Positions 4,963 through 28,133 of a DNA stretch of 64,000 nt are shown here, one piece after another (the stretch's first letter is position 1; each line of letters begins with the position of its first letter). Location: contig NZ_BLXY01000004.1 in NCBI RefSeq assembly GCF_014193585.1, positions 62,001 to 126,000 on the forward strand, read 5' to 3'. Origin of the DNA: Geomonas paludis (GTDB lineage Bacteria; Desulfobacterota; Desulfuromonadia; Geobacterales; Geobacteraceae). Position numbers and translations under genes: made by a program. The notes under the pieces are model-generated. The model was not told the origin of the DNA. It made no database searches and saw only the letters and a list, made by a program, of their open reading frames with translations.

Positions 4963-5067
4963 TTCTTTGTACCCTCCGGTGATTACTGAAGTCGCAATTA
5001 ATAGCAGAAAGTCGTCACGGTTGCAAGCAAAAAGTGGCGGTGTTCTTGTTTTTTCAGGTGCTAAATC

Positions 5068-5658: not shown

Positions 5659-5669
5659 AGGCATAAACA

Positions 5670-5746
5670 AACAGGGATAAAAGGGATCAAAGGGATAAAC
5701 CAAACTGTTCTTTGGTTTTATCCCCTTTATCCCTTTTATCCCTGTT
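5670..5746. repeat. Large inverted repeat between convergent genes
   Basis: Two arms of about 35 bases (5670-5704 and 5711-5746) are near-perfect reverse complements, built from a repeated GGGATAAA-type unit around a 6-base loop. The element fills the gap between the DUF218 gene and metG, which converge here. It can fold as a long hairpin in either direction and probably works as a bidirectional terminator. It resembles the multi-copy palindromic intergenic elements of Geobacter genomes, though no second copy is seen in this window. Confidence 0.7.
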
Positions 5747-5778
5747 AAACGTTTGAAGCCTTGCTTTTCTTCGCGGTT

Positions 5779-10027: not shown

Positions 10028-10273
10028 GTCTCCGGTCTCATGATCCTCTATAAAATCACTGAATTATAGGGGAGGGGTGATTATTATGCAAGATTTAAAT
10101 GCCCCCGCGAAGCCCTGTCGCGCAAGGGCTGGCCGCCACTGGCGGCGGTTTACGGGACGCCGCCGGAGCAGCTTGCTTAAGGTGTCTGGCCGCTGCCGCG
10201 GAGAACCCTATTGCCATGCCGGCACCCTTTGTCTATATTTGGCTCAAATTAAGGACAGGTACGGGTATTCATC

Positions 10274-10972
10274 ATGAACGAAAAGCAGGACGATACCCTG
10301 GCGGGCATCGAGGCGCGCATCAGGTACCGTTTCGGCAATGCCGAGTTGCTGCAAGAGGCGCTGACCCATCGCACCTACGTCAACGAGGCGGGGGGGAAGG
10401 ACAACCAGCGCCTGGAGTTCTTCGGCGACGCCGTGCTCGATTTTCTGCTCTCCGACCTTTTGCTCAAGCGCTTCCCGGAGAGCCGCGAGGGGGAGCTGAC
10501 CAAGATGCGGGCGGCGCTGGTGGACGAGGTGAGTCTGGCGCGCATCGCGGCGGAACTGGAACTGGGGGCCTCCCTGCGCCTTGGGCGCGGCGAGGAGAAA
10601 GGGGGAGGGCGGCAGAAACGGTCGCTTCTGGCCGATGCCTTCGAGGCCCTGCTCGCCGCACTCTACCTCGACGGCGGCATCGAAGCGGCGAGGCGCGTGG
10701 TGCACGAGCTGTTCGAGCCCCTGCTCGAATCCCAGGAACTGCTGTGCGGGCGGGACGCCAAGACCGACCTGCAGGAGCGGGCCAGGACCCTGCGCCGGGA
10801 GCTGCCGCGCTACCAGCTCAAAGACGCCACCGGTCCCGACCACGACCGCCGCTTCACCGTCGAGGTGTACCTGGGCGATGAACTGATGGGGGAGGGGGTG
10901 GGCAGGACCAAGAAGGAAGCCGAACAGGACGCCGCCCGCGCCGCTACCGTGCTGCTCAAGGGGGAGCAGTGA
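10274..10972 (+). CDS. rnc: Ribonuclease III
   Basis: A 232-residue double-strand-specific endoribonuclease that processes rRNA precursors and structured mRNAs. The catalytic signature RLEFFGDAVLDFLLSDLLL lies at about residues 44-62 and the second acidic motif DAFEALLAALYLDGG at about 119-133. The C-terminal dsRNA-binding domain begins at DLQERARTLRRELPRY and ends with EAEQDAARAATVLL. The start MNEKQDD at 10274 follows a GGACAGG ribosome site. Its stop overlaps the next gene's GTG start by 4 bases (GTGA), and era follows that gene, keeping the common rnc-era association with one gene in between. Confidence 0.96.
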   Translation: MNEKQDDTLAGIEARIRYRFGNAELLQEALTHRTYVNEAGGKDNQRLEFFGDAVLDFLLSDLLLKRFPESREGELTKMRAALVDEVSLARIAAELELGASLRLGRGEEKGGGRQKRSLLADAFEALLAALYLDGGIEAARRVVHELFEPLLESQELLCGRDAKTDLQERARTLRRELPRYQLKDATGPDHDRRFTVEVYLGDELMGEGVGRTKKEAEQDAARAATVLLKGEQ

Positions 10973-13327: not shown

Positions 13328-14854
13328 ATGGCATTAAGAAAGTATGCCGGCTACGCCTGGAACCTGATCAGTCTGGTCGGCATGATCCTGGCCGTCACCG
13401 CGACGGGCCTGATCATCGGCTTCCTCTCCTACGAGGGGATCACCGGCGTCGAGAAGCCCTACCTCGGCCTGATGACCTACTTCCTCTTCCCGGGCATGCT
13501 CATCGTGGGCCTCATCCTGGTCCCGCTGGGCGCTTACATCGTACGGGAAAAGAGGCGCAGGCATCCCGACGAGGACATCCCCCCGTTCCCGCGGGTGGAC
13601 TTCAACGACGCGCACAAGCGCCATCTGTTCCTCTTCTTCGTTATTGCCAGCATCGGCTTCGTGCTGGTCGTCTCCGTTGCTTCCCTGAAAGGTTACGAGT
13701 TCACCGAGTCGACCACCTTCTGCGGTGAGCTCTGCCACGTGGTCATGGAGCCCGAGCACGTCGCCTGGGCCAACTCTCCGCACGCCAAGGTGAAATGCGT
13801 CGAGTGCCACGTCGGCCCCGGCGCCGCCTGGTACGTCAAGGCAAAGATCTCCGGCATGAGGCAGCTCTACGCGGTGGCGTTCCACACCTACCCGGAAACC
13901 ATCGAAACCCCGATCGACAACCTCCGCCCGGCGCGTGATACCTGTGAGCACTGCCACTGGCCCGAGAAGTTTTACGCCGGGCGCCAGAAGGTGTTCTACC
14001 ACTACGCTCCCAACGAGGAGAACACCCCGCGCGAGATCAACATGCTGATCAACATCGGCGGGACCCCGAAGAGCGAGCACCACAGGGGCATCCACTGGCA
14101 CATCGGCCAGGAGGTCTCGTACATCGCCCTGGACAGACAGCGCTCCAACATCCCGTACATTGCGGTTAAGGAGAAGGACGGCACCGTCACCGAGTACATG
14201 GATACCGAGAAGCCGCTCTCCAAGGAAGACGTGGCCAAGGCTCAGAAGAGGGTCATGGACTGCCTCGACTGCCACAACCGTCCGGCGCACGTCTACCGTT
14301 CCCCGGGTGTGGAGATGGACGAGGCCTTCGCTGCCAGGCGGATCGACCAGGGGCTGCCGTACCTGAAAAAGACCGCCGTGGAGATGCTGACCAGGCCGTA
14401 CAAGAACAAGGAAGAGGCCAAGGCGACCATCGCCAAGGAACTCCCCGAGTACTACAACAAGAACTACCCGCAGGTTGCCAAGGACAAGGCGAAGGAACTC
14501 GCCCACGCCGTGACCGTGGTGCAGGACATCTACAACAGGAACTTCTTCCCGGCGATGAAGATCACCTGGAACACCTATCCCAACCACATCGGGCACTTCT
14601 ACAGCCCGGGATGCTTCCGCTGCCACGACGGCAAGCATAAGACCGCGTCCGGCAAGGTGATCTCCAAGGACTGCAACATGTGCCACACCGTCCTTGGCCA
14701 GAAGCAGGAGAACATCCCGGCCGGCAGCGCGCCGGTGAAACAGTTCGTCCACCCGGTCGACATCGGCGACGAGCTTTACAAGGCGAACTGCAGCGACTGC
14801 CATGCGGCAGGCGGGCAGGACGTCCCCGGCGGCGAGAAGCACGCCAAGAAGTAA
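13328..14854 (+). CDS. imcH: NapC/NirT-type inner-membrane heptaheme cytochrome c (ImcH-like)
   Basis: A 508-residue protein with three hydrophobic segments (about 11-35, 46-71 and 99-120) and a large periplasmic multiheme part. Heme sites are one CX3CH (CGELCH, residues 132-137) and six CXXCH (157, 206, 312, 429, 449, 488), seven in all. The stretch from the first heme through GPGAAWYVKAKISG is the NapC/NirT quinol-oxidising core. Three helices, about 510 residues and seven hemes match Geobacter ImcH, which passes menaquinol electrons to periplasmic cytochromes during metal reduction at higher potential. Other NapC-like paralogues share this plan, so the orthology is probable rather than proven. 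The gene is monocistronic, with its own AT-rich promoter region and terminator. Confidence 0.75.
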   Translation: MALRKYAGYAWNLISLVGMILAVTATGLIIGFLSYEGITGVEKPYLGLMTYFLFPGMLIVGLILVPLGAYIVREKRRRHPDEDIPPFPRVDFNDAHKRHLFLFFVIASIGFVLVVSVASLKGYEFTESTTFCGELCHVVMEPEHVAWANSPHAKVKCVECHVGPGAAWYVKAKISGMRQLYAVAFHTYPETIETPIDNLRPARDTCEHCHWPEKFYAGRQKVFYHYAPNEENTPREINMLINIGGTPKSEHHRGIHWHIGQEVSYIALDRQRSNIPYIAVKEKDGTVTEYMDTEKPLSKEDVAKAQKRVMDCLDCHNRPAHVYRSPGVEMDEAFAARRIDQGLPYLKKTAVEMLTRPYKNKEEAKATIAKELPEYYNKNYPQVAKDKAKELAHAVTVVQDIYNRNFFPAMKITWNTYPNHIGHFYSPGCFRCHDGKHKTASGKVISKDCNMCHTVLGQKQENIPAGSAPVKQFVHPVDIGDELYKANCSDCHAAGGQDVPGGEKHAKK

Positions 14855-15153: not shown

Positions 15154-15831
15154 ATGTTGATGAAGGCTTCAGAAGTGGCCGCGCTGCTGCACCAGGACGA
15201 GAGCACGGTCCTCAAGTGGATCAAGAAGGAAAAGCTCCCCGCCACCCTGGTGCACGGCACCTACCAGATCAACCGGGTCGACCTCCTGGAATGGGCTACG
15301 GAGCATGGCATCAAGGTGCCCCCCGAACTCTTCGAGGCGGTGCAGGCGGACCTGGACCTTCCCTCCCTGGCCCAGGCGCTGGAAGCCGGCGGGATCCACT
15401 GCGGAGTGCCCGGAGACGACAAGCTCTCCGTGCTGCGCAACGTGGTCAACCTGCTGCAACTTCCGCCGCAGGTGGACCCGGAGTTCCTGCTCCAGGTGCT
15501 CCTGGCCCGCGAGGCGCTGGGCACCACCGCCGTCGGCGACGGTATCGCCATCCCCCACGTCCGCAATCCCATCCTGCTGCAGACCAAGCCGAAGCCTGCG
15601 GTCTCACTGTGCTTCCTGGACCACCCCATCGACTTCGGGGCCCTGGACGGCATCCCGGTGCGCATCCTGTTCCTGATCACCAGCCCCACCGTCAAGGTGC
15701 ACCTGCACCTCCTGTCCCGGCTCGCCTATGCCCTGCACGACAGTGGATTCCGGGGCATCCTCAACAATGCCTGTGACCCCGCGGCCATCATGGATGCCGC
15801 CCGGCGCTGCGAGCGCGGCAAGAGGAGCTGA
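15154..15831 (+). CDS. Helix-turn-helix / PTS EIIA (PtsN-like) fusion protein
   Basis: A 225-residue cytoplasmic protein in two parts. Residues 3-50 are an excisionase/MerR-like helix-turn-helix (KASEVAALLHQDESTVLKWIKKEKLPA). Residues about 85-220 are a PTS IIA domain of the nitrogen/fructose type, with the phosphorylatable histidine intact in GDGIAIPHVRNP (His135). The protein could therefore receive phosphate from HPr/NPr and bind DNA or a partner. It is 3 bases ahead of a HyfB-like subunit gene, so it is probably co-expressed with and may regulate the complex. Two in-frame ATGs (15154, 15160) compete as starts. No PTS permease is nearby, favouring a regulatory rather than a transport role. 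Confidence 0.75.
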   Translation: MLMKASEVAALLHQDESTVLKWIKKEKLPATLVHGTYQINRVDLLEWATEHGIKVPPELFEAVQADLDLPSLAQALEAGGIHCGVPGDDKLSVLRNVVNLLQLPPQVDPEFLLQVLLAREALGTTAVGDGIAIPHVRNPILLQTKPKPAVSLCFLDHPIDFGALDGIPVRILFLITSPTVKVHLHLLSRLAYALHDSGFRGILNNACDPAAIMDAARRCERGKRS

Positions 15832-15834: not shown

Positions 15835-17841
15835 ATGACCTTCTCCGGCGAGCCTGCGACTTCTCTTGGACTGTTGTTGCTCGCCGTTTGCTGCCAGGCT
15901 GCGTCCGGGCTGCCGCTGCTGCTCTCCCGGGGCTCGAGCCTTGCCCAACGCGCCGGTGTCGCCCTCATGGTCACGGCATCCGTGGCCGGCTGTGCCGGCG
16001 CCCTCGGCGCCGTCTTCTTTCCCGTCACCGGTACCTGGCTCCTTCCCGCCGGGCTGCCGTTCGGCGGACTGGAGATGGGCGTCGACGCGCTCTCCGCGCT
16101 CTTCCTGCTCCCCATCTTCATCGTCACCGGCTGCTGCGCCGTCTACGGCGCCGGCTACTGGCCGGTGGCGCGGCACCCGGAACACGGCGGCAAGCTCGCC
16201 TTCTTCCTCGGCCTCTTGTCCGCGGCCCTCACCGTGGTGCTGGTGGCCAGGAGCACCATGCTCTTTTTGATGGGGTGGGAGGTGATGGCCCTGGCCGCCT
16301 ACTTCGCCCTCACCACCGAGGACGAAAAGCACGAGGTGCGCGAGGCGGGGGTGCTCTACCTGATCACGGCCCACCTGGGCGCCCTGGCGCTCTTTGCCAC
16401 CTTCTCGCTTCTCAACGCCGCCACCGGCGCCTACCTTTTCCCCGCCCCCGGCTCCCTCTCTGCCGCGGGCCCCATGGCCACGGCCATTTTCCTGACCGCC
16501 CTGTTCGGCTTCGGGATGAAGGCCGGCGTCATGCCGCTGCACATCTGGCTCCCCTCGGCGCACGCCAACGCCCCCAGCCACGTCTCCGCGATTCTCTCCG
16601 GCGTGGTGCTGAAGACCGGGATCTACGGGATGATGCGCGTCTTCTGCGCCTTTGCCGACCCGCCGCTTTGGTGGGGCGCCCTGGTGCTGGTGCTGGGATG
16701 CATCTCCGCCGTGCTCGGGGTCGCCTACGCCATCGGGCAGCACGACCTGAAGCGGCTTCTGGCCTACCACAGCATCGAGAACATCGGCATCATCCTCATG
16801 GGTATCGGCATGGCGCTCATCGGCGCCAACCAGGGGTGGGAGGCGCTGGTCGCGCTCGGGGTGGCGGGGGCGCTCTTGCACGTCGTCAACCACGCCCTGT
16901 TCAAGGCGCTGCTCTTTCTTTCCGCCGGTTCCGTCATCCATGCCACCGGCACCAGGGAAATCGACCTGCTCGGCGGCGTGGCGCGCCGGTTGCCCAGGAC
17001 GGCGCTGTTTTTCCTGGTAGGTGCCGTCGCCATCTGCGGCCTTCCCCCCTTGAACGGCTTCGTCAGCGAACTGATGATTTACCTGGGTGCCTTCAACTCC
17101 ATCGAGGCGGCCGTCGGCCTGGGGCCGTCGCTCCCCGCGCTGGCGGCGCCGGTGCTGGCGCTGGTGGGGGGGCTTGCCGTCGCCTGCTTCGTGAAGGTGT
17201 ACGGGGTGGTCTTCCTGGGGGCGCCGCGCGCTGCGGAACACGAAGCCGGGCATGAGGCGGGTGCCGGGATGCTGGTCCCGATGGGGGTACTGGCCGCGTG
17301 CTGCGCCCTGATCGGACTGGCGCCGGGGGGGCTGGTCCCGGTCCTGAACGGCGCCCTGCGCGGGTACGGCGCTACGCCCGAGCTGCAGCAGGGGATCGCG
17401 AGCCTGGTCCCCTTCGGCTGGATCTCGATCATTGGGGCGGGATTGATACTGCTGTTGGCGCTGCTCTGGGTCTTCTTCGCCAGGGGAGCCACCCGTCTGC
17501 CGGTGCCGGTCGCGCCGACCTGGGGCTGCGGCTACCTGAGGCCCACGCCGCGCATGCAGTACACCGCCTCTTCGTTCGGGGCCATCCTGGTCGGGTGGTT
17601 CGCGCTGCTGCTCCGTCCCGAGCGGCACCGGGAAGAGGTGAGGGGGCTTTTCCCGGGGCGCGCCAGTCACGAGAGTCACCTTCCCGAGACGGTGCTGGAG
17701 AAAGGCTATCTCCCGTTTCTGGAGTACCTGTTCGAGAAGGCCCAGCCGGTGCGGCGCCTGCAGCACGGCAAGCTGAACATCTACATCTTCTACACCTTCG
17801 TGACGCTGGTGCTGCTGCTGGCCATTACCAGCGGGCAGTAG
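15835..17841 (+). CDS. HyfB/NuoL-like proton-translocating membrane subunit (copy 1)
   Basis: A 668-residue polytopic membrane protein of the complex I antiporter-like family, closest in character to hydrogenase-4 subunit B. The ion-pathway residues are kept: Glu149 in FLMGWEVMAL, Lys229 in GFGMKAGVMPLH, the SAHANAPSH loop, Lys260 in VVLKTGIYG, and Lys357 in HALFKALLF. The C-terminal extension with PTWGCGYLRPTPRMQYT and RRLQHGKLNIYI is typical of HyfB/HycC. It is 3 bases behind the HTH-EIIA gene. Unusually it is separated from the other subunit genes by an oppositely oriented three-gene quinone module; a second paralogue lies beyond that module. Confidence 0.85.
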   Translation: MTFSGEPATSLGLLLLAVCCQAASGLPLLLSRGSSLAQRAGVALMVTASVAGCAGALGAVFFPVTGTWLLPAGLPFGGLEMGVDALSALFLLPIFIVTGCCAVYGAGYWPVARHPEHGGKLAFFLGLLSAALTVVLVARSTMLFLMGWEVMALAAYFALTTEDEKHEVREAGVLYLITAHLGALALFATFSLLNAATGAYLFPAPGSLSAAGPMATAIFLTALFGFGMKAGVMPLHIWLPSAHANAPSHVSAILSGVVLKTGIYGMMRVFCAFADPPLWWGALVLVLGCISAVLGVAYAIGQHDLKRLLAYHSIENIGIILMGIGMALIGANQGWEALVALGVAGALLHVVNHALFKALLFLSAGSVIHATGTREIDLLGGVARRLPRTALFFLVGAVAICGLPPLNGFVSELMIYLGAFNSIEAAVGLGPSLPALAAPVLALVGGLAVACFVKVYGVVFLGAPRAAEHEAGHEAGAGMLVPMGVLAACCALIGLAPGGLVPVLNGALRGYGATPELQQGIASLVPFGWISIIGAGLILLLALLWVFFARGATRLPVPVAPTWGCGYLRPTPRMQYTASSFGAILVGWFALLLRPERHREEVRGLFPGRASHESHLPETVLEKGYLPFLEYLFEKAQPVRRLQHGKLNIYIFYTFVTLVLLLAITSGQ

Positions 17842-18063: not shown

Positions 18064-19311
18064 CTAATGCGTCTCCTTGAACACCGGCATCACCTTGTTC
18101 AGCAGGTAAAAGAGGCAGAAGGGGACCCCGGCGACGATGAGGGCGCCGACGAGGCCTTCCTTCAGCGTTTCCATGTTGTCCGGCCACAGCGGCAGCACGT
18201 AGTGCATGAACCCGGAGAAGGACGAGGAGAAGGCCTGCCCGCCGATGACGACGTTCCAGCGCATCATGAACACGCCCAATAGCACCAGCACGGTCCCCAC
18301 CATGGCCCTCCGGATGGTCAGCCCGGGGATCAGGAACAGCACGAAGGGGACCAGGTTCCCCAACCCGTACTGCACCACGAAGATGTTCACGAAGTCCCGC
18401 TCGTAGATGACGCTCCTCAGGATGTCCCACGACTTCACCGCCGTATAACCCCTGAATATCAGGTCCAAAAGCTCCAGCGTGATGGCCGCCACCATGAACA
18501 TGAGCAGGTAGCGCGAGGTCATGGCCACCACGTGGGCCTCGGCGCTCTTCAACTCCTCCATGGAGGGGAGCTCGGGGTGGGCGAGCCTGCGCCGACGCGA
18601 CAGTTGCTTCCGTATCTCCATGGTGAGGATGTAGGTCAGGATGCACAGGGCGATGCCGGAAACGACCGCGGAACAGATGAAGATGACCGGCATGAGCGGG
18701 GTCATCCACAGGGCGTTGGCCTTGACCGAACCGAAGATGAAACCCGCGTAACCGTGCAGGAAGCAGGCGACCGGGATGCCGGCGGCGGCAAGCTTCTTGA
18801 CCGCCCGCTCGTCGGCCTCGAGCGCCTCGTGCGAGATGTCCCAGGCCCCCAGCGTCAGCACGCTGAACAGGAGGTACTGTCCCTGCTGCAGGGCGTTCCG
18901 TCCCTCGATGCTCTTCAGCGCGAGCGCGGTCTCCACGAAGTGCTTGCGGAACACGAACCAGAGCTCGGAAGCGACGATCATGCCGTAGGTGCTGAACACG
19001 ATGCCGAAGGCCGCGATGGCGGAGGTGAAATGCGGCGTCAGCATCACCTCGATGCCGCGCAGCGGCTGCTGCAGGTGCATCATTAGCGGCAGCATGGCGA
19101 CCGGCAGCAGCGCGAAGGAAAACACCAGCGAGAAACGCGCGATCTCCTTCAACTGCTTCACCCCGAAGACGTGGTACAGCGAGGAGAGTACGAAGGCGCC
19201 GGCCACGAGGCCGGTCATGAACGGGTACATGACGATCTGGATGGTCCAGTAGATGTACTCGTTGGGGTAGGTGAAAAACTCCTTTATGGTCCAGGCTTCT
19301 CCGTGCACCAT
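18064..19311 (-). CDS. NrfD/PsrC/HybB-type quinone-interacting membrane subunit
   Basis: A 415-residue integral membrane protein with about nine or ten helices. Features of the NrfD/HybB family are seen: the N-terminal YWTIQIVMYPFMTGLVAGAFV helix, and later ARFSLVFSFALLPVAMLPL and the PFVLFLIPGL segment. These subunits bind menaquinone and pass electrons to or from a periplasmic ferredoxin-like partner, with no heme of their own. It is the last gene of a minus-strand trio (cytochrome, ferredoxin, NrfD), 2 bases after the ferredoxin gene. Together they resemble the modules found in Nrf, Qrc and related quinone:cytochrome oxidoreductases. The direction of electron flow cannot be told from sequence. 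Confidence 0.85.
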   Translation of the reverse strand: MVHGEAWTIKEFFTYPNEYIYWTIQIVMYPFMTGLVAGAFVLSSLYHVFGVKQLKEIARFSLVFSFALLPVAMLPLMMHLQQPLRGIEVMLTPHFTSAIAAFGIVFSTYGMIVASELWFVFRKHFVETALALKSIEGRNALQQGQYLLFSVLTLGAWDISHEALEADERAVKKLAAAGIPVACFLHGYAGFIFGSVKANALWMTPLMPVIFICSAVVSGIALCILTYILTMEIRKQLSRRRRLAHPELPSMEELKSAEAHVVAMTSRYLLMFMVAAITLELLDLIFRGYTAVKSWDILRSVIYERDFVNIFVVQYGLGNLVPFVLFLIPGLTIRRAMVGTVLVLLGVFMMRWNVVIGGQAFSSSFSGFMHYVLPLWPDNMETLKEGLVGALIVAGVPFCLFYLLNKVMPVFKETH

Positions 19312-19313
19312 GG

Positions 19314-20096
19314 CTATTTCACCTCCTTGGAAAGGCCGAGGTAGAAGACCTGCGGCTTGGTGCCGTACTCTTCCTTGAGCACGTTGACGCGCTCGGTCAT
19401 GATGATCCTGGTCACCGGGTCGTCGGGGTCCCTCAGGTTACCCACCCGGCGCGCACCGAAGGCGCAACTGTCGACGCAGGCGGTCTGCATCCCCTTGGTG
19501 ATGCGGTGGTAGCAGAAGTTGCACTTCTCGGCGACGTGGAACACGGGATGGAAGAAGCGCACCCCGTAGGGGCACCCCATGATGCAGTAGCCGCAGCCGA
19601 TGCACCACTTCCGGTCCACCAGCACCACGCCGTCCGCCGTCTGGTAGGTGGCCCCCACCGGACAGACCTGGACGCAGGGCGGGTTGTCGCACTGGTTGCA
19701 GAGCTTGGGAACGAAGAAGGCCTTGTCGATGTCCTCGTCCTTGATCTCTTCGAGTTTGCCGTGCCCGATGTCGATCCCCTTGTTGGGGAAGCCGTCGCGC
19801 GCTCCCTTGGGGGAGTCGATGTGGGTCTTGCCGTCCGTGGTCACCACGTAGCGCTCCACCCAGGTGCGGGTGACGTTGGCGTCGTAGGGGACCTCGTTCT
19901 CCACCTTGCACCCCTTGACGCAGAAGCCGCACCCCACGCATTTGCGGGTATCGACCAGGAAGACCCAGCGCGGCCCCTTCTGGTCCTTCTCGGCCAGCAA
20001 CCGCTTGGGATCGAAAAGCTCCAGGCAGGAGAGCGGGATCGCAAGCCCACCCGCGATGAGCAGGGATTTCTTGCAGAAGGATCGTCTCGAAATCAT
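19314..20096 (-). CDS. Exported 4x[4Fe-4S] ferredoxin subunit (NrfC/HybA/DmsB-like)
   Basis: A 260-residue protein with a twin-arginine signal (MISRRSFCKKSLLIAGGLA). Sixteen cluster cysteines are arranged as CVGCGFCVKGC, CNQCDNPPCVQVC, CIGCGYCIMGC and CNFCYHRITKGMQTACVDSC, the standard four-cluster wire of NrfC/DmsB-type subunits. It would carry electrons in the periplasm between the NrfD subunit and the cytochrome. The ATG at 20096 overlaps the cytochrome stop by 4 bases and fits both the TAT signal and the coupling; longer upstream readings would add an unrelated cytochrome-overlapping tail. Folded, cofactor-loaded export by TAT is expected. Confidence 0.88.
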   Translation of the reverse strand: MISRRSFCKKSLLIAGGLAIPLSCLELFDPKRLLAEKDQKGPRWVFLVDTRKCVGCGFCVKGCKVENEVPYDANVTRTWVERYVVTTDGKTHIDSPKGARDGFPNKGIDIGHGKLEEIKDEDIDKAFFVPKLCNQCDNPPCVQVCPVGATYQTADGVVLVDRKWCIGCGYCIMGCPYGVRFFHPVFHVAEKCNFCYHRITKGMQTACVDSCAFGARRVGNLRDPDDPVTRIIMTERVNVLKEEYGTKPQVFYLGLSKEVK

Positions 20097-20569
20097 CTCT
20101 TGTGCCCCTCCTTCCTGGGATCGTGCGGCCAGTGGCAGGTAACGCAGTCCAGGCCGGCGTTGTGGGTTTTGGGGTCGATCCCCTTCATGATGCCTCGGCC
20201 GCTGTTGGGGTAGGGGAGGCGGGTGTGGCAGCGGGCGCAGAGTTCGCGGCTGCGATCGACGGTCAGGGAGTGCGGATCCTTGGGGTGATCCAGGGCGGGG
20301 CCGTGGCAGTTCTCGCAGTTGATGTTGCGGTGCGGCGATTCCTTCATCTCCTCGTACTTGTCGGGGTGGCAATCCTTGCAGTGCGCCGCCGTCTTGTACT
20401 TCACCGGCATATCCTTCCACTGCTGCTCGTTGCCGGCGCGGTGCCAGCCGTACATGTACCCCCTGGCGCCGATCCCGAAATCGGCGGGGACCAGGACCTT
20501 GCGCGCCACCAGCACCAGGGCGATCACCACCAGCACCACCAATAGCGGCCGCCAAACATGACTCTTCAC
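20093..20569 (-). CDS. Membrane-anchored tetraheme cytochrome c
   Basis: A 158-residue protein starting with GTG at 20569, chosen because a strong AAAGGAGGGAGG ribosome site lies directly upstream and because it leads straight into a single anchor helix (WRPLLVVLVVIALVLVA). The periplasmic part carries four CXXCH motifs: CKDCH, CENCH, CARCH and CVTCH. It is the first gene of the minus-strand trio with the ferredoxin and NrfD proteins and is translationally coupled to the ferredoxin gene. By analogy with other NrfD modules it is the electron exit or entry point to soluble periplasmic cytochromes. No close named homologue is recognised. Confidence 0.82.
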   Translation of the reverse strand: MKSHVWRPLLVVLVVIALVLVARKVLVPADFGIGARGYMYGWHRAGNEQQWKDMPVKYKTAAHCKDCHPDKYEEMKESPHRNINCENCHGPALDHPKDPHSLTVDRSRELCARCHTRLPYPNSGRGIMKGIDPKTHNAGLDCVTCHWPHDPRKEGHKR

Positions 20570-20680
20570 AGCCTCCCTCCTTTCGACCTGCAGTAACGAT
20601 TTTCGACAGCGCCGGGAAAACTGCGGCAACTGTCCCATTTCCTACCTGACTAGCTATGACCTTCCGCCACGATGCCCATC

Positions 20681-20792
20681 TCCCTCTCCCCCCGGGAGAG
20701 GGCTGGGGTGAGGGCGCTGCAATAGGCAATGATCCCGCTTCGTGGCATCTCCCTCACCCGCCCTTCGGGCACCCTCTCCCAGAGGGAGAGGG
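20681..20792. repeat. CCCTCTCCC-type palindromic repeat, copy 1
   Basis: An element bounded by CCCTCTCCCCCCGGGAGAGGG and the complementary GGGAGAGGG side at 20780-20792, with internal GGTGAGGG and CCCTCACCC arms, fills the gap between divergent transcripts. Related copies are at 23137-23290, 27932-28050 and 55316-55431. It can fold into a branched hairpin. From 20793 to 20949 an AT-rich stretch contains a GGCACC/GGTGCC hairpin; no gene is seen in 20570-21153. Confidence 0.65.
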
Positions 20793-20949
20793 CATTAGCG
20801 GAAGATTGTAGCTAATCAGGATTTCCTATAACGATGTTCGAAACAAAAAGGAGCACGAGTTTAATGATAACGGCACCCCGCTTGAAAACAAGGTGCCTAG
20901 GCGGTATTGTTGTTTTATCCGCCCCGCTAGTGACATTAAAAATCTTTTT

Positions 20950-21153: not shown

Positions 21154-23130
21154 ATGTTGTTTTTTGACATGATGCGGGACCCGGCTTCCCTGGTCCTTTG
21201 CGCTATAGCTCTAGCCGGCTGTTCCGGGCTTCCCGGTCTCGTGTTGCGAGACGGCACGCTCGGACAACGGCTGGCCTCGGTGGCCGCGCTCGCAAGCTCT
21301 CTCCTCGCGCTACCGTCTCTTCTCTACCTGCTGCTCGGGGGAGGAGAAGCAAGCTTCCTCCTGAACTGGAACCTCCCCTTCGGCCCCTGCCAAGTCGCCC
21401 TCGACCCTCTCTCTCTATTCTTCCTGATCCCCATCTTTTTGGTGTTCCCCGCTGGCTCCCTTTACGCCCTCGGTTACTGGCCCGCCGCCTCGCACAGCTC
21501 CCAAAGAAGCGTCACCTTTTTCTACGGTTTGCTCGCCTGCGCCATGGCGCTGGTGGTGGTTTCGCGCAACGGCGCCCTGTTCATGATGGCGTGGGAAACG
21601 ATGGCGCTGTCGGGCTATTTCCTGTTGGTTGCGGAGCACCGCGAGGGTGAGGTGCGCGGCGCCGGGACGGTCTATCTGGTGGCGAGCCACCTGGGAGGGG
21701 CGGCGCTGCTGGTCCTGTTCGCCTCGCTGTTCATGATCACCGGCGGCTTCGGCTTCCCCGCGGCCGGCTCGCTTGCCGTCGGCGCGGGCCTTGCGGCGAC
21801 GCTGTTCTGGCTCGCCCTGGCCGGCTTCGGCTCCAAGGCCGGACTCATGCCGCTGCACCTGTGGCTCCCGTCTGCTCACGCCAACGCCCCGAGCCACGTC
21901 TCCGCGCTCCTCTCCGGCGTCATGCTGAAGATCGGGGTCTACGGCATCCTGCGCGTGATCTCGTTCTTCCCGGAGCGCCCGCTCTGGTGGGGCGGCGTGC
22001 TCACCGGCGCGGGGCTCGCCTCGGCGGTGTTGGGGATCTGCGTCGCCTCCGCGCAAAAGGACATCAAGCGTCTCTTGGCCTACAGCAGCATCGAGAACCT
22101 GGGCATCATCTGCGCCGGTATCGGCATGTTCCTGCTGGGGCAGGGGAGCGGCAACGACCGCCTCGCCTTCCTGGGGCTGGCCGGAGCGCTCTTCCACGTG
22201 CTGAACCACGTCGTCTTCAAGCCGCTGCTCTTCTTCTGCGCCGGGAGCGTCATGCACGCCGCCGGCACCCGCGACCTGGACCGCATGGGCGGGCTGGCGC
22301 GCCGGCTTCCGTTCACCGCCTTCTTCACCCTGTGCGGCGCGGTCGCCATCTGCGGCCTCCCCCCCTTCAACGGCTTCGCCAGCGAGATGCTCCTCTACCT
22401 CGGCTTCTTCGGCGAGGCCCGCGCGGGCCAGCCCTTCGTCGCCCTGGGCGCCCCGGTGCTGGCCCTGGTGGGGGGCGTCGCGGTGATCTCCTTCGTGAAG
22501 CTCTACGGCATCGCCTTTCTGGGGGAGCCGCGCACCGCCGAGGCTGCCGGCGCCCACGAGGCGGCCGGGACCATGCTGGCCCCCATCGCCCTCCTGGCCT
22601 GCCTCGCCCTCACCGGCGGGCTTTTCCCCCAGCTCTTCCTGGCCCTGGTGCAACCCGCCATCCGCGGGCTCGCCCCTGACCTGGCCCCCGCGGCCGTCCT
22701 CCCCATCGCGCCGGTCTGGTTCGCCGTGGCGGGTGGGAGCGTCATCTGCATGGCGGCCATCCTGTTCCTGTTCCTGCGCGCCAAGACCAGCGGCGGCGCT
22801 GCATCCGCCCCCACTTGGGGCTGCGGTTATCTTTGCCCGTCGCCGCGCATCCAGTACACCGGCAGCTCGTTCGGCGCCTTCTTCTCCTCGCTTTCGGGCC
22901 CCTTGATCCGGACCCGCATCAGCGTGGGGCAGGTGGCCGGCCTTACCCCGGCGGCGGTGCGGTTGAGCTACCATCCCGAGGAGACCCTGCTGCACCGGGT
23001 GGTGCTGCCGGTCCTGAGCGTCGCCGGGACCGTCTGCGCCTTCGTCAGGCGCCTGCAGCACGGTGAGGTGCAGATCTATATTCTCTATATCTTCGTGACG
23101 CTGATGCTATTGCTGTTGTGGGTGCATTAG
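21154..23130 (+). CDS. HyfB/NuoL-like proton-translocating membrane subunit (copy 2)
   Basis: A 658-residue paralogue of the HyfB-like protein at 15835. It keeps Glu148 (MMAWETMAL), Lys228 (GFGSKAGLMPLH), the SAHANAPSH loop, Lys259 (VMLKIGVYG) and the C-terminal PTWGCGYLCPSPRIQYT and RRLQHGEVQIYI blocks. Copies 1 and 2 are colinear along their length, suggesting duplication followed by divergence. The start is uncertain: ATG at 21154 or at 21169. It begins the main subunit run HyfB-C-E-F-G-I, but a 267-base gap rich in palindromic repeats separates it from the HyfC-like gene. Confidence 0.85.
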   Translation: MLFFDMMRDPASLVLCAIALAGCSGLPGLVLRDGTLGQRLASVAALASSLLALPSLLYLLLGGGEASFLLNWNLPFGPCQVALDPLSLFFLIPIFLVFPAGSLYALGYWPAASHSSQRSVTFFYGLLACAMALVVVSRNGALFMMAWETMALSGYFLLVAEHREGEVRGAGTVYLVASHLGGAALLVLFASLFMITGGFGFPAAGSLAVGAGLAATLFWLALAGFGSKAGLMPLHLWLPSAHANAPSHVSALLSGVMLKIGVYGILRVISFFPERPLWWGGVLTGAGLASAVLGICVASAQKDIKRLLAYSSIENLGIICAGIGMFLLGQGSGNDRLAFLGLAGALFHVLNHVVFKPLLFFCAGSVMHAAGTRDLDRMGGLARRLPFTAFFTLCGAVAICGLPPFNGFASEMLLYLGFFGEARAGQPFVALGAPVLALVGGVAVISFVKLYGIAFLGEPRTAEAAGAHEAAGTMLAPIALLACLALTGGLFPQLFLALVQPAIRGLAPDLAPAAVLPIAPVWFAVAGGSVICMAAILFLFLRAKTSGGAASAPTWGCGYLCPSPRIQYTGSSFGAFFSSLSGPLIRTRISVGQVAGLTPAAVRLSYHPEETLLHRVVLPVLSVAGTVCAFVRRLQHGEVQIYILYIFVTLMLLLLWVH

Positions 23131-23136: not shown

Positions 23137-23290
23137 TTCCCCCTCGCCCTCCGGGAGAGGGTGGCCGAAGGCCGGGCCTGCGCGCCGTAGCGCTTCGGTC
23201 CGCGAAGGCGGGTGAGGGAGACGCCAGGAGGGAAGACCTCGCCGATAGCAGCGCCCTCACCCCGACCCTCTCCCGGGGGGAGAGGGAGAT
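23137..23290. repeat. CCCTCTCCC-type palindromic repeat, copy 2 (inside the operon)
   Basis: The copy starts 7 bases after the HyfB copy 2 stop codon. It has CCCTCCGGGAGAGGG and GGCGGGTGAGGG on one side and CCCTCACCCCGACCCTCTCCC on the other. It lies within what should be one transcript, between two subunit genes of the same complex. Confidence 0.65.
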
Positions 23291-23397: not shown

Positions 23398-24306
23398 ATG
23401 ATCGACACAATCTTCCACGTGGTGCTGGTGCTGGCCATGCCGCCGCTGTTGCTGGGGGTGATCGGCAAGACCAAGGCGGCCTTCGCCGGGCGGGTGGGCG
23501 CTCCCTTCCTGCAGCCCTACTACGACATGGGGCGGCTCATGAAGAAAGGGATCGTCCTCTCCGACAGCACCACCTGGATCTTCAGCGCCGGGCCGGTGGT
23601 GACCCTCGCCGCCACCCTGTTCGCCGCGCTCCTGGTGCCGCTGGGGAAACACCCCGCCCCGATCTCCTTCGAGGGGGACATGATCCTGTTCGCCTACCTC
23701 TTCGCCCTGGGGCGCTTCTTCACCACCACGGCGGCGCTGGATACCGCCTCCAGCTTCGAGGGGATGGGGGCGGCCCGCGAGGTGAGCTTCTCCTGCCTGG
23801 CCGAGCCGACGCTCTTCTTCGCCCTGATCACCCTGACCAGGCTCTCCGGGACCATGAGCCTCACCCCCATGCTGCAGCACGTGACGCTCCCGGTCTGGAT
23901 GGGGACCGGCGCCTCGCTCATCCTGCTGCTGGCCGGACTGTTCGTGGTGCTTTTGGCGGAGAACTGCCGCATCCCCTTCGACGACCCCAACACCCACCTG
24001 GAGCTCACCATGATCCACGAGGTGATGGTGCTGGACCACAGCGGTCCCTACTTCTGCTGCGTCCTCTACGGCGCCGCGCTGAAGCTCTACCTCCTGGGCG
24101 CGCTCTTCGTGAACATCGCGCTCCCCTTCGCCTCGGGCAACGCCTACGTTGACTGGGTGGTCTTCGCGGCCGGCATGCTGCTCCTGGCCGTGGCCATCGG
24201 GGTGGTGGAGTCGGTGATGGCGCGCCTGAGGCTGATCCGCGTGCCGCAGTTGCTGGTGGCGGCGTTGATCCTGACCGCATTCTCCCTGGTCCTGGTTGTG
24301 AGGTGA
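23398..24306 (+). CDS. HyfC/NuoH-like membrane subunit
   Basis: A 302-residue membrane protein of the complex I subunit 1/HycD-HyfC family, which links the hydrophilic arm and quinone-like cavity to the ion-pumping subunits. Diagnostic segments are GRVGAPFLQPYYDMGRLMKKG near the N-terminus and ENCRIPFDDPNTHLELTMIHEVM, the acidic loop typical of group-4 hydrogenase-type members. ACAGGAG precedes the ATG. It is followed after 4 bases by the HyfE-like gene. Its similarity to hydrogenase-type rather than NADH-type NuoH fits the rest of the cluster. Confidence 0.88.
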   Translation: MIDTIFHVVLVLAMPPLLLGVIGKTKAAFAGRVGAPFLQPYYDMGRLMKKGIVLSDSTTWIFSAGPVVTLAATLFAALLVPLGKHPAPISFEGDMILFAYLFALGRFFTTTAALDTASSFEGMGAAREVSFSCLAEPTLFFALITLTRLSGTMSLTPMLQHVTLPVWMGTGASLILLLAGLFVVLLAENCRIPFDDPNTHLELTMIHEVMVLDHSGPYFCCVLYGAALKLYLLGALFVNIALPFASGNAYVDWVVFAAGMLLLAVAIGVVESVMARLRLIRVPQLLVAALILTAFSLVLVVR

Positions 24307-24310: not shown

Positions 24311-24952
24311 ATGAATTCGCTGGCCGACCAGCTGCTGGTTCTCTGTCTCTTGATCAACTTCGCCGTCCTGGGCACCAGCCGGCTCGCCTTCTCGGTGCGC
24401 TGCGTCGCGGTGCAGGGGGTGCTGCTCGGGACGCTGCCGGCGCTGGTGCATCCCTTCTCCTGGCACGTCAGCTTCATCGTGGTGAGCATCATCCTGGTGA
24501 AGGGGGCGCTGATCCCGGCCCTGATCATCCGGGCCATCAAGAAGGCGGAGATCGAGCGTGAATTCTCGCCTTTCATCGGCTACATCCCCTCGCTGGTGCT
24601 GGGGGCGCTCTTCACCTCGCTCGCCTTCATCTTCGCCGCCAAGCTCCCGCTCGCGCCCGAGCACGAGGGGCTCCTGATCGTGCCGGCTGCCGCCGCGACC
24701 CTCATGAGCGGCTTCCTGGTGCTCATGGGGAGGCGCAAGGCGATCTCGCAGGTGCTGGGCTACCTGCTCATGGAGAACGGCATCTTCCTGTTCGGCCTGC
24801 TCCTGGCCGACGCCATGCCGGTCATGGTGGAGGCGGGGGCGCTCCTCGACCTCCTGGTCGGCATCTTCGTCATGGGGATCGTCATCAACCACATCAGCCG
24901 CGAGTTCTCGAGCATCGACACCTCGAGACTCTCCGCGCTGAGGGAGGAATAG
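24311..24952 (+). CDS. HyfE-like membrane subunit (NuoK-related)
   Basis: A 213-residue membrane protein with about six helices, matching hydrogenase-4 component E in length and features (SLVLGALFTSLAFIFAAKLPL, the conserved GRRKAISQVLGYLLMENGIFLFG block near residues 140-162, and a conserved Glu in LMENGIFLF). The C-terminal half corresponds to NuoK of complex I, whose helix glutamates take part in proton transfer. It is tightly packed (4-base gaps on both sides) between the HyfC-like and HyfF-like genes, so translation is probably coupled. Confidence 0.85.
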   Translation: MNSLADQLLVLCLLINFAVLGTSRLAFSVRCVAVQGVLLGTLPALVHPFSWHVSFIVVSIILVKGALIPALIIRAIKKAEIEREFSPFIGYIPSLVLGALFTSLAFIFAAKLPLAPEHEGLLIVPAAAATLMSGFLVLMGRRKAISQVLGYLLMENGIFLFGLLLADAMPVMVEAGALLDLLVGIFVMGIVINHISREFSSIDTSRLSALREE

Positions 24953-24956: not shown

Positions 24957-26390
24957 ATGATGTGGGCCCTGGTCCTGCTTCCGCTTCTTGGCGCCGCGCT
25001 TTCCTGGCTCGTCCCGGACAACCGCCGGCGCGTCTGGGTGCTCCCCGTCTTCTCCCTGGCGCAGCTCGGGGTGAGCGCCGCGCTCCTGGTCAACACGCCG
25101 CCCCCCTCCCCGGCGGGATGGATCTGGCTCGATCCCCTGGGCAAGCTCGTGCTCATGGCCAACAGCGTGCTCTTCACCGTCTGCTCGCTGTACGCGGTCG
25201 GCTACCTGAGCTACCGCCTGAAGCGCCCGAACCGGGTGCTGTGCGCCTCGCTGCTGGTCTGCCTCGCCGCGACCTCCCTGGTGGTGATCTCGCAGCACCT
25301 GGGGCTTTTGTGGATCGCGCTGGAGGCCACCACGCTGACCATGGCGCCGCTCATCTACTTCAACCACAACGCCCGCTCCATCGAGGCCACCTGGAAGTAC
25401 CTGCTGATCTGCTCGGTCGGTATCGCCATTGCCCTTTTGGGGCTCTTCTTCCTGGCTTACTCCACCATCGTGGCCAAGCAGGAGGTGAGCCTCTTGCTCC
25501 CCTCCCTGATCCGCGACGCCGCCGCACTCCATCCGGGGTGGCGCCATGCCGCCTTCATCTTCCTGCTGGTCGGCTTCGGCTCCAAGATGGGGCTTGCCCC
25601 CCTGCACACCTGGAAGCCCGACGCCTACGGCGAGGCCCCGGGGCTGGTGGGGGCGCTCCTTGCCGGCGGGCTGGTCAACTGCGCCCTCCTGGCGCTGCTG
25701 CGGGTGTACCAGGTGGCGGCGGCCTCGAGCGAAGGGGCGCTCTTCCAGCAGGTGCTCCTCGCCATGGGACTGGTCTCCATGGCCTTCGCCGCCGTCTTCA
25801 TGGCGCGCCAGAGCGACTTCAAGAGGATGCTCGCCTATTCCAGCGTCGAGCACGTCGGCATCATCGCCGTGGCGCTCGGGCTGGGCAAGGGGGCGCTCTT
25901 CGCGGGCCTTTTGCACATGATCAACAACTCCCTCACCAAGGGGGTGCTCTTTCTCTCCTGCGGCAACATCCACCGCGCCTTCAATTCCAAGAGCACCCAG
26001 TTCGTGCGCGGCGCCCTGCGGCGCACCCCCTGGTCGGCGGCGCTCTTCCTGGCCGCTTTCCTGGCCATCACCGGGTCGCCCCCCTTCGCCCCCTTCGTCA
26101 GCGAGTTCCTGATCGTCTCCTCCGCCTTCGGGCAGGGGAACCACTGGACCGGCGCTCTGTTCCTCCTCTTCCTGGCGCTCATCTTCATCGGCATGGCCTC
26201 CACCGTGCTTCCGGTGGTCCTGGGCGAGGTACCGCCGGACCTGGAGCGGACCCGCTACCGGGATGCCGCGCCCACCGTCTTGCCCCCCCTGGCGCTGATG
26301 GGGCTCGTGCTGGTGCTGGGGGTGTGGATCCCGACGCCTTTGCAGGACCTCCTGCACGAGGCGGCGCGGCTTTTGGGAGGTGAGGCATGA
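24957..26390 (+). CDS. HyfF/NuoN-like proton-translocating membrane subunit
   Basis: A 477-residue antiporter-like protein with about fourteen helices, similar to hydrogenase-4 subunit F. Key charged residues are present: Glu123 in WIALEATTLTMAP, Lys210 in GFGSKMGLAPLHTW, and a later lysine in NNSLTKGVLFLSCGNIH. It is the third such subunit of this complex with the two HyfB-like proteins, so three potential ion channels are encoded. Its stop overlaps the start of the large-subunit gene by 4 bases. Confidence 0.88.
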   Translation: MMWALVLLPLLGAALSWLVPDNRRRVWVLPVFSLAQLGVSAALLVNTPPPSPAGWIWLDPLGKLVLMANSVLFTVCSLYAVGYLSYRLKRPNRVLCASLLVCLAATSLVVISQHLGLLWIALEATTLTMAPLIYFNHNARSIEATWKYLLICSVGIAIALLGLFFLAYSTIVAKQEVSLLLPSLIRDAAALHPGWRHAAFIFLLVGFGSKMGLAPLHTWKPDAYGEAPGLVGALLAGGLVNCALLALLRVYQVAAASSEGALFQQVLLAMGLVSMAFAAVFMARQSDFKRMLAYSSVEHVGIIAVALGLGKGALFAGLLHMINNSLTKGVLFLSCGNIHRAFNSKSTQFVRGALRRTPWSAALFLAAFLAITGSPPFAPFVSEFLIVSSAFGQGNHWTGALFLLFLALIFIGMASTVLPVVLGEVPPDLERTRYRDAAPTVLPPLALMGLVLVLGVWIPTPLQDLLHEAARLLGGEA

Positions 26391-27898
26391 GCCCGGCCCT
26401 GGTCTTCACCCAGAACGGCGGCGTGCTGCCGCGCCGCGAGATTCCGCGCCACGCGCCCGAGCGCTTCGCCCAGGCGCTCCTCTCCGCCCTTGCCGGCGGC
26501 TGGCGGGTGGTATCCTACTTCGGCATGCAGGAGGAGGACGGCATCTGCCTGTACTGCCTCCTTTCCTTCAAGAGCCACGCCTCCATAGGCGTCATGAGCA
26601 CGCAGGTCACCGGCAAGAGCTTCTACTCGCTGGTCTCCGAGGCGCCCCAACTGCACCTCTTCGAGCGCGAGATCGCCGAGCAGTTCTACCTGAACCTGGA
26701 GGGGCACCCCTGGCCCAAGCCGGTCCGCTTCGCCCCGGCGCTCGGCTCCCTCCCCGGGGAAACCCCCGCGTCCCCCCCCACCGTCGGCGTCATGGACTTC
26801 TACCGGGTGGAGGGGGAGGAGGTGCACGAGGTGGCGGTGGGGCCGGTGCACGCCGGCATCATCGAGCCGGGACATTTCCGCTTCCAGTGCTTCGGCGAGG
26901 AGGTGATGCACCTCGAGATCTCGCTCGGCTACCAGCACCGCGGCGTCGAGCGCATGATGCAGGGGCGCCCGGGCGAGCGGATGCGCAAGCTGATGGAGAC
27001 CGTGGCGGGGGACACGACTATCGGCCACGGCACCGCCTACGCCATGATCGTCGAGGCGCTTTCCGAGACGCGGGTGCCGGCCCGGGCCCAGGCGGTGCGC
27101 GGCATCGCCCTGGAACTGGAGCGGCTGGCCAACCACACCGGCGACCTGGGCGCCATCGCCGGGGACGTGGGCTACCTCCCCACCGCGTCGTTTTGCGGCA
27201 GGATACGCGGCGACTTCCTCAACATGACCGCGGGGATCTGCGGCAGCCGTTTCGGCCGCGACCTGGTACTGCCGGGGGGCGTCCGCTTCGACCTCGATGG
27301 CGCGGAGGCGCGCCGGCTTGCCGACCGGATCAAGGTGGCCCGAGATGAGGTGCATAACGCGGTCGATCTCCTTTGGGATACCCCCTCGGTAATGGCGAGG
27401 CTGGAGGGGACCGGCGTGGTGAGCGAGCAGACCGCCATCGAACTGGGGCTGGTGGGGCCGGCGGCGCGTGCCAGCGGCCTCAACCGGGACATCCGGCGCG
27501 ACCACCCCTTCGGCATCTACAGCATGAGCCAGATCCCGGTGGAGACCGCCAAGAGCGGCGACGTCTACGCGAGGACCCTGGTGCGCTGGCTGGAGATCGA
27601 GAAGTCACTCGACTTCATCGAGGAGCAGCTCTCCCAGTTGCCCGGCGTCAACGTGGCCAACCCGGTGCGCGAGGTGGCGGGGGACCAGCTGGCGGTGGCG
27701 CTCACCGAAGGGTGGCGCGGCGAGATCTGCCACGTGGCGCTTACCGACCAGCGGGGCAACTTCCAGCGCTACAAGGTGACCGATCCCTCCTTCCACAACT
27801 GGACCGGTCTCGCCCTGGCGCTGCGCGGAGGGCAAATTTCCGACTTCCCGCTGTGCAACAAGAGCTTCAACCTTTCCTACTGCGGGTTCGACCTCTAG
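26387..27898 (+). CDS. HyfG/NuoCD-like large subunit lacking NiFe ligands (Ehr type)
   Basis: A 503-residue protein fusing a NuoC-like domain (about 1-130) to a NuoD/hydrogenase-large-subunit domain. The landmark GYQHRGVERMM is present at 181-191. Where a hydrogenase has its first RxCGxC pair the sequence reads VAGDT (206-210), and where the C-terminal DPCxxC pair should be it reads NLSYCGFDL and stops. None of the four nickel-iron cysteines is in place, and there is no C-terminal processing extension. This defines the Ehr group, related to complex I and group-4 hydrogenases but without a NiFe site. What it reacts with is unknown. It is translationally coupled to the HyfF-like gene. Confidence 0.88.
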   Translation: MSPALVFTQNGGVLPRREIPRHAPERFAQALLSALAGGWRVVSYFGMQEEDGICLYCLLSFKSHASIGVMSTQVTGKSFYSLVSEAPQLHLFEREIAEQFYLNLEGHPWPKPVRFAPALGSLPGETPASPPTVGVMDFYRVEGEEVHEVAVGPVHAGIIEPGHFRFQCFGEEVMHLEISLGYQHRGVERMMQGRPGERMRKLMETVAGDTTIGHGTAYAMIVEALSETRVPARAQAVRGIALELERLANHTGDLGAIAGDVGYLPTASFCGRIRGDFLNMTAGICGSRFGRDLVLPGGVRFDLDGAEARRLADRIKVARDEVHNAVDLLWDTPSVMARLEGTGVVSEQTAIELGLVGPAARASGLNRDIRRDHPFGIYSMSQIPVETAKSGDVYARTLVRWLEIEKSLDFIEEQLSQLPGVNVANPVREVAGDQLAVALTEGWRGEICHVALTDQRGNFQRYKVTDPSFHNWTGLALALRGGQISDFPLCNKSFNLSYCGFDL

Positions 27899-27931
27899 CC
27901 TCTACGGGCGTCTCGGAAGGGGCAACACCCA

Positions 27932-28050
27932 TTCCCTCTCCCTCCGGGAGAGGGTGCCCGAAGGGCGGGTGAGGGTGTTGCTGCGGAGTGCCGCCCGTCC
28001 GCCCTATGGCAAAGCCCTCACCCCGACCCTCTCCCAGGGGGAGAGGGGGA
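27932..28050. repeat. CCCTCTCCC-type palindromic repeat, copy 3 (inside the operon)
   Basis: The arms CCCTCTCCCTCCGGGAGAGGG (27935-27955) with GGCGGGTGAGGG, and CCCTCACCCCGACCCTCTCCC ending at 28035, lie between the large- and small-subunit genes. A short tandem duplication (GGATGGACC units, 28048-28098) follows. Confidence 0.65.
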
Positions 28051-28133
28051 TGGACCAGGGAGTGAAAGGGACGGACCAGGGGAGAGGGGGATGGACCGGC
28101 TGGTGTTCGTCATTTGAAAACAGGAGTCGCATC

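Follow-up and report, generated by a model that had tools for sequence, protein, structure and literature searches.

The window analysed here, a stretch of 64,000 nucleotides from the 5.1 Mb genome of Geomonas paludis, carries between positions 15154 and 28892 a gene cluster in the order HTH-EIIA gene, ehrA2, cbcUTS (minus strand), ehrA1, ehrB, ehrC, ehrD, ehrL and ehrS:

15154..15831, plus strand: HTH-EIIA gene, 225 aa (HTH_17 and PTS EIIA type 2, PtsN-like; Pfam PF12728, PF00359)
15835..17841, plus strand: EhrA2, second HyfB/NuoL-like antiporter subunit (PF00361; hydrogenase 4 subunit B model at 5e-173, below the curated cut-off)
18064-20638, minus strand: cbcUTS operon, between the two ehrA genes
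21154..23130, plus strand: EhrA1, HyfB/NuoL-like antiporter subunit (PF00361; hydrogenase 4 subunit B model at 8e-167, below the curated cut-off)
23398..24306, plus strand: EhrB, HycD/HyfC/NuoH-like subunit (PF00146)
24311..24952, plus strand: EhrC, HyfE-like subunit (hydrogenase 4 membrane subunit model at 8.5e-23, below the curated cut-off)
24957..26390, plus strand: EhrD, HyfF-like antiporter subunit (PF00361; hydrogenase 4 subunit F model at 7e-99, below the curated cut-off)
26387..27898, plus strand: EhrL, large subunit, intact open reading frame of 503 aa
28134..28892, plus strand: EhrS, ferredoxin-like part and NuoB/HycG-like small subunit, 252 aa (PF01058, PF00037)

The presence in one cluster of antiporter, NuoH-like and HyfE-like membrane subunits and of an Fe-S small subunit is what characterizes Ehr complexes, of which this one is almost certainly a member. 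Ehr complexes are widespread, and the literature consulted calls their role unknown. EhrL fuses a HycE-type N-terminal part to a NuoD/HycE-like part; its gene overlaps ehrD by 4 bases, and ehrA2 starts 3 bases past the HTH-EIIA gene. An earlier, sequence-only reading of the window had reported a complete complex with intact membrane and Fe-S subunits. All of these are indeed intact open reading frames and the parts it described hold, but the second ehrA gene (15835-17841) and the HTH-EIIA gene (15154-15831) had been overlooked. The Ehr proteins of the Geobacteraceae relative G. sulfurreducens (GSU0739-0745; EhrA-1, EhrC, EhrL and EhrS), which we liken to those of the window by their published names (PMC7894505, PMC8691401), are of the same subunit types, whereas the genus of the window has cbcSTU between its two ehrA genes. 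A multihaem NrfH-like cytochrome with 6 CxxCH motifs is encoded upstream of the HTH-EIIA gene (13328-14854), and palindrome-like repeats of the type CCCTCTCCC/GGGAGAGGG occur at 20682-20800, 23145-23290, 27930-28090 and 55408-55428, two of these groups falling in the ehrA1-ehrB and ehrL-ehrS gaps of the operon.

The residues of the membrane arm are largely those of formate hydrogenlyase-type relatives. EhrB keeps seven of the nine E-channel residues of HycD named in PMC9474812, the changes in the window being E199 to N and E201 to H. EhrA1 has every HycC residue checked except for a Lys in place of HycC L208, as in HyfB; EhrA2 keeps HycC E135, H222, K239, K336 and E391, also has K at 208, and shows as its sole further change relative to EhrA1 a Glu for D354. 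EhrD departs from HycC at H222, H332 and D354 and has Asn at 239, as does HyfF.

The sequence-only reading had further claimed that the large subunit retains the scaffold GYQHRGVERMM and has lost all four NiFe cysteines, with VAGDT (27002-27016) and NLSYCGFDL (27869-27895) in their stead. These motifs are correctly placed, at EhrL residues 181-191, 206-210 and 495-503, respectively. When EhrL is aligned to the E. coli proteins HycE and HyfG and to the group 4 hydrogenase of its own genome, HycE C241, C244, C531 and C534 come to stand opposite A207, T210, S497 and G500. No CxxC pair falls at the ligand positions, leaving EhrL without the two NiFe-holding CxxC pairs of group 4 [NiFe] hydrogenases. 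The true group 4 hydrogenase of the genome (L002/L119) has both pairs (CSLC and DPCIAC), so that the loss is not organism-wide. Alignment A2 comprises 26 rows (18 NKS-type Ehr, three of the FGLS type, three hydrogenases and two Nuo), and all of its NKS-type rows are free of Cys at the four positions. Alignment A4 contains the window and 79 of 80 named loci, L150 being left out for a frame break; the named loci were picked by searching for the peptides HAG[IV]IEPG and [SP]DFPL[CN]NK and keeping the best 80 of 571, a choice that in part selects for residues 155-162 and 485-492 and represents distant Ehr poorly. Among its 80 rows (best 80 of 571), Cys is found at 207 in one (L142) and at 210, 497 and 500 in none. 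L142 and L088, the latter outside A4, carry a lone Cys at the first ligand position, CGDT for AGDT, the other three being absent.

The consistency of this absence across Ehr rows, together with an ehrL dN/dS of 0.07-0.25 relative to eight loci of the same genus, indicative of purifying selection, excludes both chance and decay into a pseudogene. A displaced CxxC was rejected, C490 and C499 being neither pair-spaced nor conserved throughout, as was a general catalytic role for C499, which lies one residue ahead of the fourth ligand position, outside any CxxC, and gives way to Ser or Ala in other Ehr. As judged from the alignments, the ligands are truly lost, and with them any hydrogenase activity. 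That Ehr complexes lack the NiFe ligands and have an unexplained role is already in print (PMC6349859 among other sources), as the sequence-only reading had stated. We drew in addition on PMC10284858, PMC10432482 and PMC12342949; the consulted part of PMC8076601 yielded no mention of Ehr.

The place of the ligands is taken by a pocket of residues found in Ehr only (D209, W443, N491-K492-S493, N495, S497-Y498, G500 and D502-L503), near-invariant in the 80 EhrL of A4 (best 80 of 571), which represent many phyla. The stretches of EhrL concerned, with counts from the same 80 rows, are the following:

26864..26875, plus strand: E160-P-G-H163, beta1-beta2 loop; E160 (80/80) equates to HycE E193, the hydrogenase proton gate
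27002..27016, plus strand: V206-A-G-D-T210, first CxxC position, usually [AS]GD[TS]
27713..27718, plus strand: W443-R444, canopy Arg kept and hydrogenase Pro replaced by Trp (W in 79/80)
27857..27895, plus strand: N491-KSFNLSYCGFD-L503, second CxxC position; N495 occupies the site of the canopy Asp (HycE D529)

Invariant in A4 (best 80 of 571) are G208, D209, N491, K492, S493, S497, Y498, G500 and D502, and N495, like W443, is found in 79 rows and C499 in 78; position 207 is Ala in 75, Ser in 4 and Cys in 1, and position 210 Thr in 71, Ser in 6, Ala in 2 and Val in 1. Ten of the 13 columns from N491 to L503 are invariant (hypergeometric P 2.5e-6), as are 8 of the 13 C-terminal columns (P 7e-5) in A3, an alignment of 17 rows whose loci came from profile or protein searches without peptide patterns. 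In A2, D209 is present in 18/18 Ehr against T, S, I or L in the others, W443 in 18/18 NKS-type Ehr against P in the remaining 8 rows, and N495 in 18/18 Ehr against the canopy D in hydrogenases and Nuo and G in the FGLS type; all 18 have G500 at the fourth ligand position, and at 497 Ser is found in 17 and Ala in the remaining one. Given that the canopy Asp is reported to be strictly conserved across hydrogenases and complex I (PMC9474812), its replacement by Asn suggests that proton chemistry may differ in Ehr, a point against the mechanism favoured below. The proton-path residues E160, H250, R361, E403 and R444, as deduced from the roles of HycE residues (PMC9474812), are kept in 18/18 Ehr. 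All 79 EhrL of the named loci (best 80 of 571) terminate in DL-stop at the mature end and hence lack a hydrogenase-type C-terminal extension. EhrL endings other than DL were also seen, DQ in L049 and DR in the second EhrL of L174. An AlphaFold model of EhrL (pLDDT 91.3, pTM 0.92, with lowest confidence in the beta1-beta2 loop at 154-158 and at the C-terminus) found its best Foldseek match in HycE (7z0s_E; TM 0.88 by query), which by sequence and fold is the closest solved structure. A description of this pocket was not met in the open-access literature searched, and may exist in subscription papers. What had been four missing cysteines is now a defined set of residues for mutation. In sequence terms, D209, H214, S497 and C499 are at the former ligand positions or next to them, and might be thought to hold another metal centre; no known metal motif was seen, however, some rows have Asn or Gly in place of H214, and C499 varies among Ehr types as described above, making such a centre most improbable.

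Quinones were also considered as substrates. Nqo4 His38 and Tyr87 correspond to EhrL I159 and G208 (in one alignment the Tyr lies in a two-residue insert beside D209), and in no alignment does EhrL have this quinone-binding pair of complex I (NuoD), for which reason a complex I-type quinone site was rejected. With the NiFe ligands and the quinone His/Tyr both absent, the complex is not a hydrogenase, nor is it a quinone reductase of the complex I type. Ehr could still be a ferredoxin:menaquinone oxidoreductase whose quinone site is made of new residues, as the pocket coincides with the location of the quinone head group in complex I (PMC7684303), fold and membrane arm are complex I-like, and a menaquinol-linked cbcSTU operon lies within the cluster in the genus of the window. 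The cbc genes of the window fit the make-up of Cbc4 (a c-type cytochrome, an Fe-S protein and a membrane subunit; PMC11434368). Yet the insertion recurs in just five other ehr neighbourhoods among the loci examined (L034-L037 and L150), and in other Geobacterales among these loci the HTH-EIIA, ehrA2 and ehrA1 genes adjoin or diverge. Two menaquinone markers, PF02621 (futalosine route) and menB, were searched for in 50 of the 65 Ehr genomes first chosen; 32 had one of them (PF02621 in 23, menB above cut-off in 9 others), but 18 genomes of unstated completeness, including those of Rectinema subterraneum and a Treponema MAG, had neither above cut-off, several of them giving weak, sub-cut-off crotonase-like matches. 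Ehr genomes devoid of menaquinone markers were not met in the literature searched. With His38 and Tyr87 replaced, we regard the menaquinone reading as distinctly unlikely, and the evidence presented here counts against a complex I-type quinone role for Ehr.

E. coli Hyc and Hyf share with the window Ehr their subunit types, proton-path residues and proximal-cluster spacing, but have both CxxC pairs, the canopy Asp and a C-terminal extension, none of which is found in Ehr, where in addition Trp replaces the canopy Pro. The P. furiosus MBS resembles Ehr in being hydrogenase-derived with a degenerate NiFe site; it has two of the four Cys left, no proton Glu, a three-Cys proximal cluster and a three-residue deletion (PMC7684303), whereas the window Ehr has no Cys at a ligand position, keeps the Glu, has four proximal Cys and lacks the deletion. 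The two Cys and three-Cys cluster that mark MBS are thus not those of the window complex. Complex I NuoD/NuoB is similar to Ehr in the absence of the four NiFe Cys, in fold and in end position, and differs from it in having the quinone His and Tyr, in the His for which Ehr has a Glu loop, and in branching separately; the canopy Arg of Ehr is Lys in the two Nuo rows of the same genome, and the adjacent CC of NuoB at cluster N2 is C136-x-x-C139 in EhrS. Ehr is a hydrogenase-4/FHL-like relative of complex I in which the [NiFe] ligands have been replaced by a strictly conserved polar pocket.

An IQ-TREE phylogeny (LG+C20, 58 rows, rooted by choice on NuoD) groups the 32 NKS-type Ehr in a single clade (99/95) nested among group 4 hydrogenases; the FGLS type joins them at 100/100, also inside the hydrogenases, and Nuo, the chosen root, stands apart from Ehr and hydrogenases (100/100). 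The fork placing E. coli HycE/HyfG beside Ehr has 88/70, and the forks adjacent to FHL-like proteins and to HycE/HyfG have bootstraps of only 87-88. Among the results that would refute it, the sequence-only reading had named a complex standing nearer to the active hydrogenases of group 4; the tree does show this relationship, and the ligand loss stands nonetheless. The topology fits a single loss of the ligands, no later than the base of the NKS-type clade. NKS-type Ehr as one clade within group 4 hydrogenases was not met in the literature searched.

The nearest relatives of EhrL among the matches listed include named Geobacter and Geomonas records, the best-listed named one being from Geomonas limicola (Geobacteraceae; 73% identity, among the best 80 of 571). 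EhrL-like matches at E 1e-146 or better were found in 52 of the 58 genomes of the relatives search, that of the window included, the six without being G019, G021, G029, G031, G034 and G047. In a set of 297 genomes from the phylum, matches at E 1e-60 or better occur in 66, four of which (G121, G141, G159 and G329) score at the level of the Cys-less FGLS type, FGLS being read in three. This second Cys-less large subunit, seen in the phylum genomes at L110, L111, L112 and L113 and ending in ASFGLSNAECDR or similar, keeps E160, the canopy Pro and in most cases the Arg, is without D209, W443, K492 and N495, and joins Ehr at 100/100. Ehr paralogues of the NKSFNQSYSG/NKSVNGSYSG types were also seen (L116, L102-L107, L114, L115, L117, L108, L109 and L040), whose small subunit is without the ferredoxin part (13 rows); in some Geobacterales genomes both Ehr types are present.

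EhrS carries two 4Fe-4S ferredoxin motifs and the proximal ligands C136, C139, C203 and C233 at hydrogenase spacing, and aligns without gaps to MbhJ and HycG from the CxxC onward. The mechanism that we tentatively favour, at rather less than an even chance, is that of an ion pump linked to ferredoxin that uses a different proton-coupled acceptor, its main rival being a non-catalytic gate (see below). Electrons, presumably from reduced ferredoxin, would enter at the ferredoxin-like part of EhrS and reach the remodelled EhrL pocket by way of the hydrogenase-type proximal [4Fe-4S] cluster. A small acceptor would be reduced there; for want of NiFe it would not be a proton, nor would it be a quinone bound in the complex I manner. 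Protons would arrive by the kept hydrogenase path (E160, H250, R361, E403 and R444), and the reaction would power ion transport by EhrB and the antiporter subunits EhrA1, EhrA2 and EhrD. In favour of this mechanism are the ligand loss with its Ehr-only residues, the single NKS-type clade inside group 4 hydrogenases, the retained proton path, E-channel and antiporter residues, the hydrogenase spacing of the proximal ligands, the purifying selection on ehrL, and the higher level of the G. sulfurreducens Ehr proteins on formate cited below. The sequence-only reading had the complex likely working with something other than H2; the catalytic pocket that it took for granted is called into question by the EhrS variants described below. 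All eight ferredoxin-part cysteines are present in 94 of the 131 EhrS rows and the part is missing in 13; such incompleteness counts against the ferredoxin mechanism.

Is there a dedicated enzyme partner? Beyond the Ehr genes and HTH-EIIA, no gene family occurred in at least 4 of the 80 loci (best 80 of 571) in a search of ORFs of at least 100 aa (E 1e-10, 60% coverage) that excluded those overlapping matches to window genes, kinases and cbc included; because of these thresholds and exclusions, neighbours that are divergent or encode kinases may have escaped notice. The lack of a recurring catalytic partner fits a diffusible donor such as ferredoxin. It also weighs against Ehr being part of a formate-oxidizing system, whether FDH-Ehr or formate hydrogenlyase-like, as may be suggested by the finding that the G. 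sulfurreducens Ehr proteins are produced, reaching higher levels on formate than under hydrogen-containing conditions (PMC7894505), and by FDH genes having been proposed as partners in Saganbacteria and Margulisbacteria (PMC6349859). As no H2 release is possible by known chemistry where NiFe is absent, we consider a role in formate oxidation very unlikely.

Among the 131 EhrS rows, of which L181 (frame break), L200 and the second copy of L174 (both incomplete) went unscored, 124 of 128 retain all four proximal ligands. The other four have lost two or more (states in the order of the four ligands):

L136, Planctomycetales, 9516-10322: EhrS with N/E/E/W, CNAC/C/C becoming NAAE/E/W
L178, Verrucomicrobiia, 9485-10351: EhrS with S/E/E/W, CNAC/C/C becoming SGAE/E/W
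L159, Opitutae, 5008-5973: EhrS with D/V/C/W, CNAC/C/C becoming DGSV/C/W
L170, Opitutaceae, 9334-10284: EhrS with C/A/C/W, CNAC/C/C becoming CGAA/C/W

Each loss is accompanied by a change of PGCPP to PGWPP. A survey of 30 Verrucomicrobiota loci revealed a fifth such EhrS, L252, whose S/E/E/W is shared with L178's own genome, so that this state has persisted; 27 of the 30 keep the fourth ligand, with Cys at every other readable position (seven have an unread position), and one, L266, was unreadable and left unscored because of a wrong ORF. An EhrS tree computed without the ligand columns, in which few forks are resolved, places L136 apart from the Verrucomicrobiota trio and so needs two changes. 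The EhrL pockets of these four loci differ only at 205, 210 and 211, the first and last of which vary in intact EhrL relatives too, and EhrL is single at E 1e-40 in the genomes of L136, L178 and L159, whereas that of L170 has a second EhrL at 38% identity. EhrS devoid of proximal ligands was not met in the open-access literature searched; subscription papers may hold it.

An active-site pocket fed with electrons should have relaxed in such loci, and that it is unchanged or nearly so counts against the ferredoxin mechanism; nothing else speaks as strongly as these variants against reading the pocket simply as a new active site, and they offer a natural route to ask whether Ehr needs electrons at all, a question relevant to the evolution of complex I-type coupling from hydrogenases. 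In the rival reading the pocket would be a plug and no active site: W443 and K492, together with the invariant C-terminus, would fill the NiFe cavity and serve as a proton or conformational gate. Ehr would then transport ions in the manner of Mrp, sensing redox state or, in some lineages, doing without redox altogether. The loss of proximal ligands on two branches of the EhrS tree beside a nearly unchanged pocket in EhrL, which is single-copy in three of the four genomes at the cut used, argues for such a gate, as do the complete antiporter arm and the lack of a recurring enzyme partner reported above. Its weakness is that the great majority of scorable EhrS keep all four ligands and that the proton-path residues match those of catalytic relatives, in view of which we hold the gate to be somewhat unlikely.

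The HTH-EIIA protein, which retains the phospho-His motif GIAIPH, hints at how Ehr is controlled. Among the matches listed from the 297 phylum genomes, 31 of 33 two-domain homologues of at least 45% identity lie within 13 kb of ehrL, while of the other two one is on a contig other than that of its ehrL fragment and one sits at the end of a contig, its genome giving no Ehr match; among these matches a homologue is present in 31 of 66 Ehr-positive versus 1 of 231 Ehr-negative genomes. Gene calling based on GC3 overlooked EhrL in 12 of 58 loci; the neighbourhood counts given here therefore come from tblastn and HMM searches of the 80 named loci (best 80 of 571), of which 43 and 42, respectively, have HTH-EIIA, loci shortened upstream being scored as misses. 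The genome has one HPr, and the gene probably couples expression to the phosphorylation state of PTS-Ntr. The fuller scenario of a gate pocket in a former hydrogenase turned phosphotransfer-controlled ion transporter, some Planctomycetota and Verrucomicrobiota having already shed the last electron carrier but kept the other parts of the machine, strikes us as unlikely. The HTH-EIIA/ehr link was not met in the open-access literature searched, and subscription papers may hold it. The gene accompanies ehr clusters across phyla, and in some Verrucomicrobiota loci (e.g. L161 and L174) a divergent form of it lies between ehrA and ehrB.
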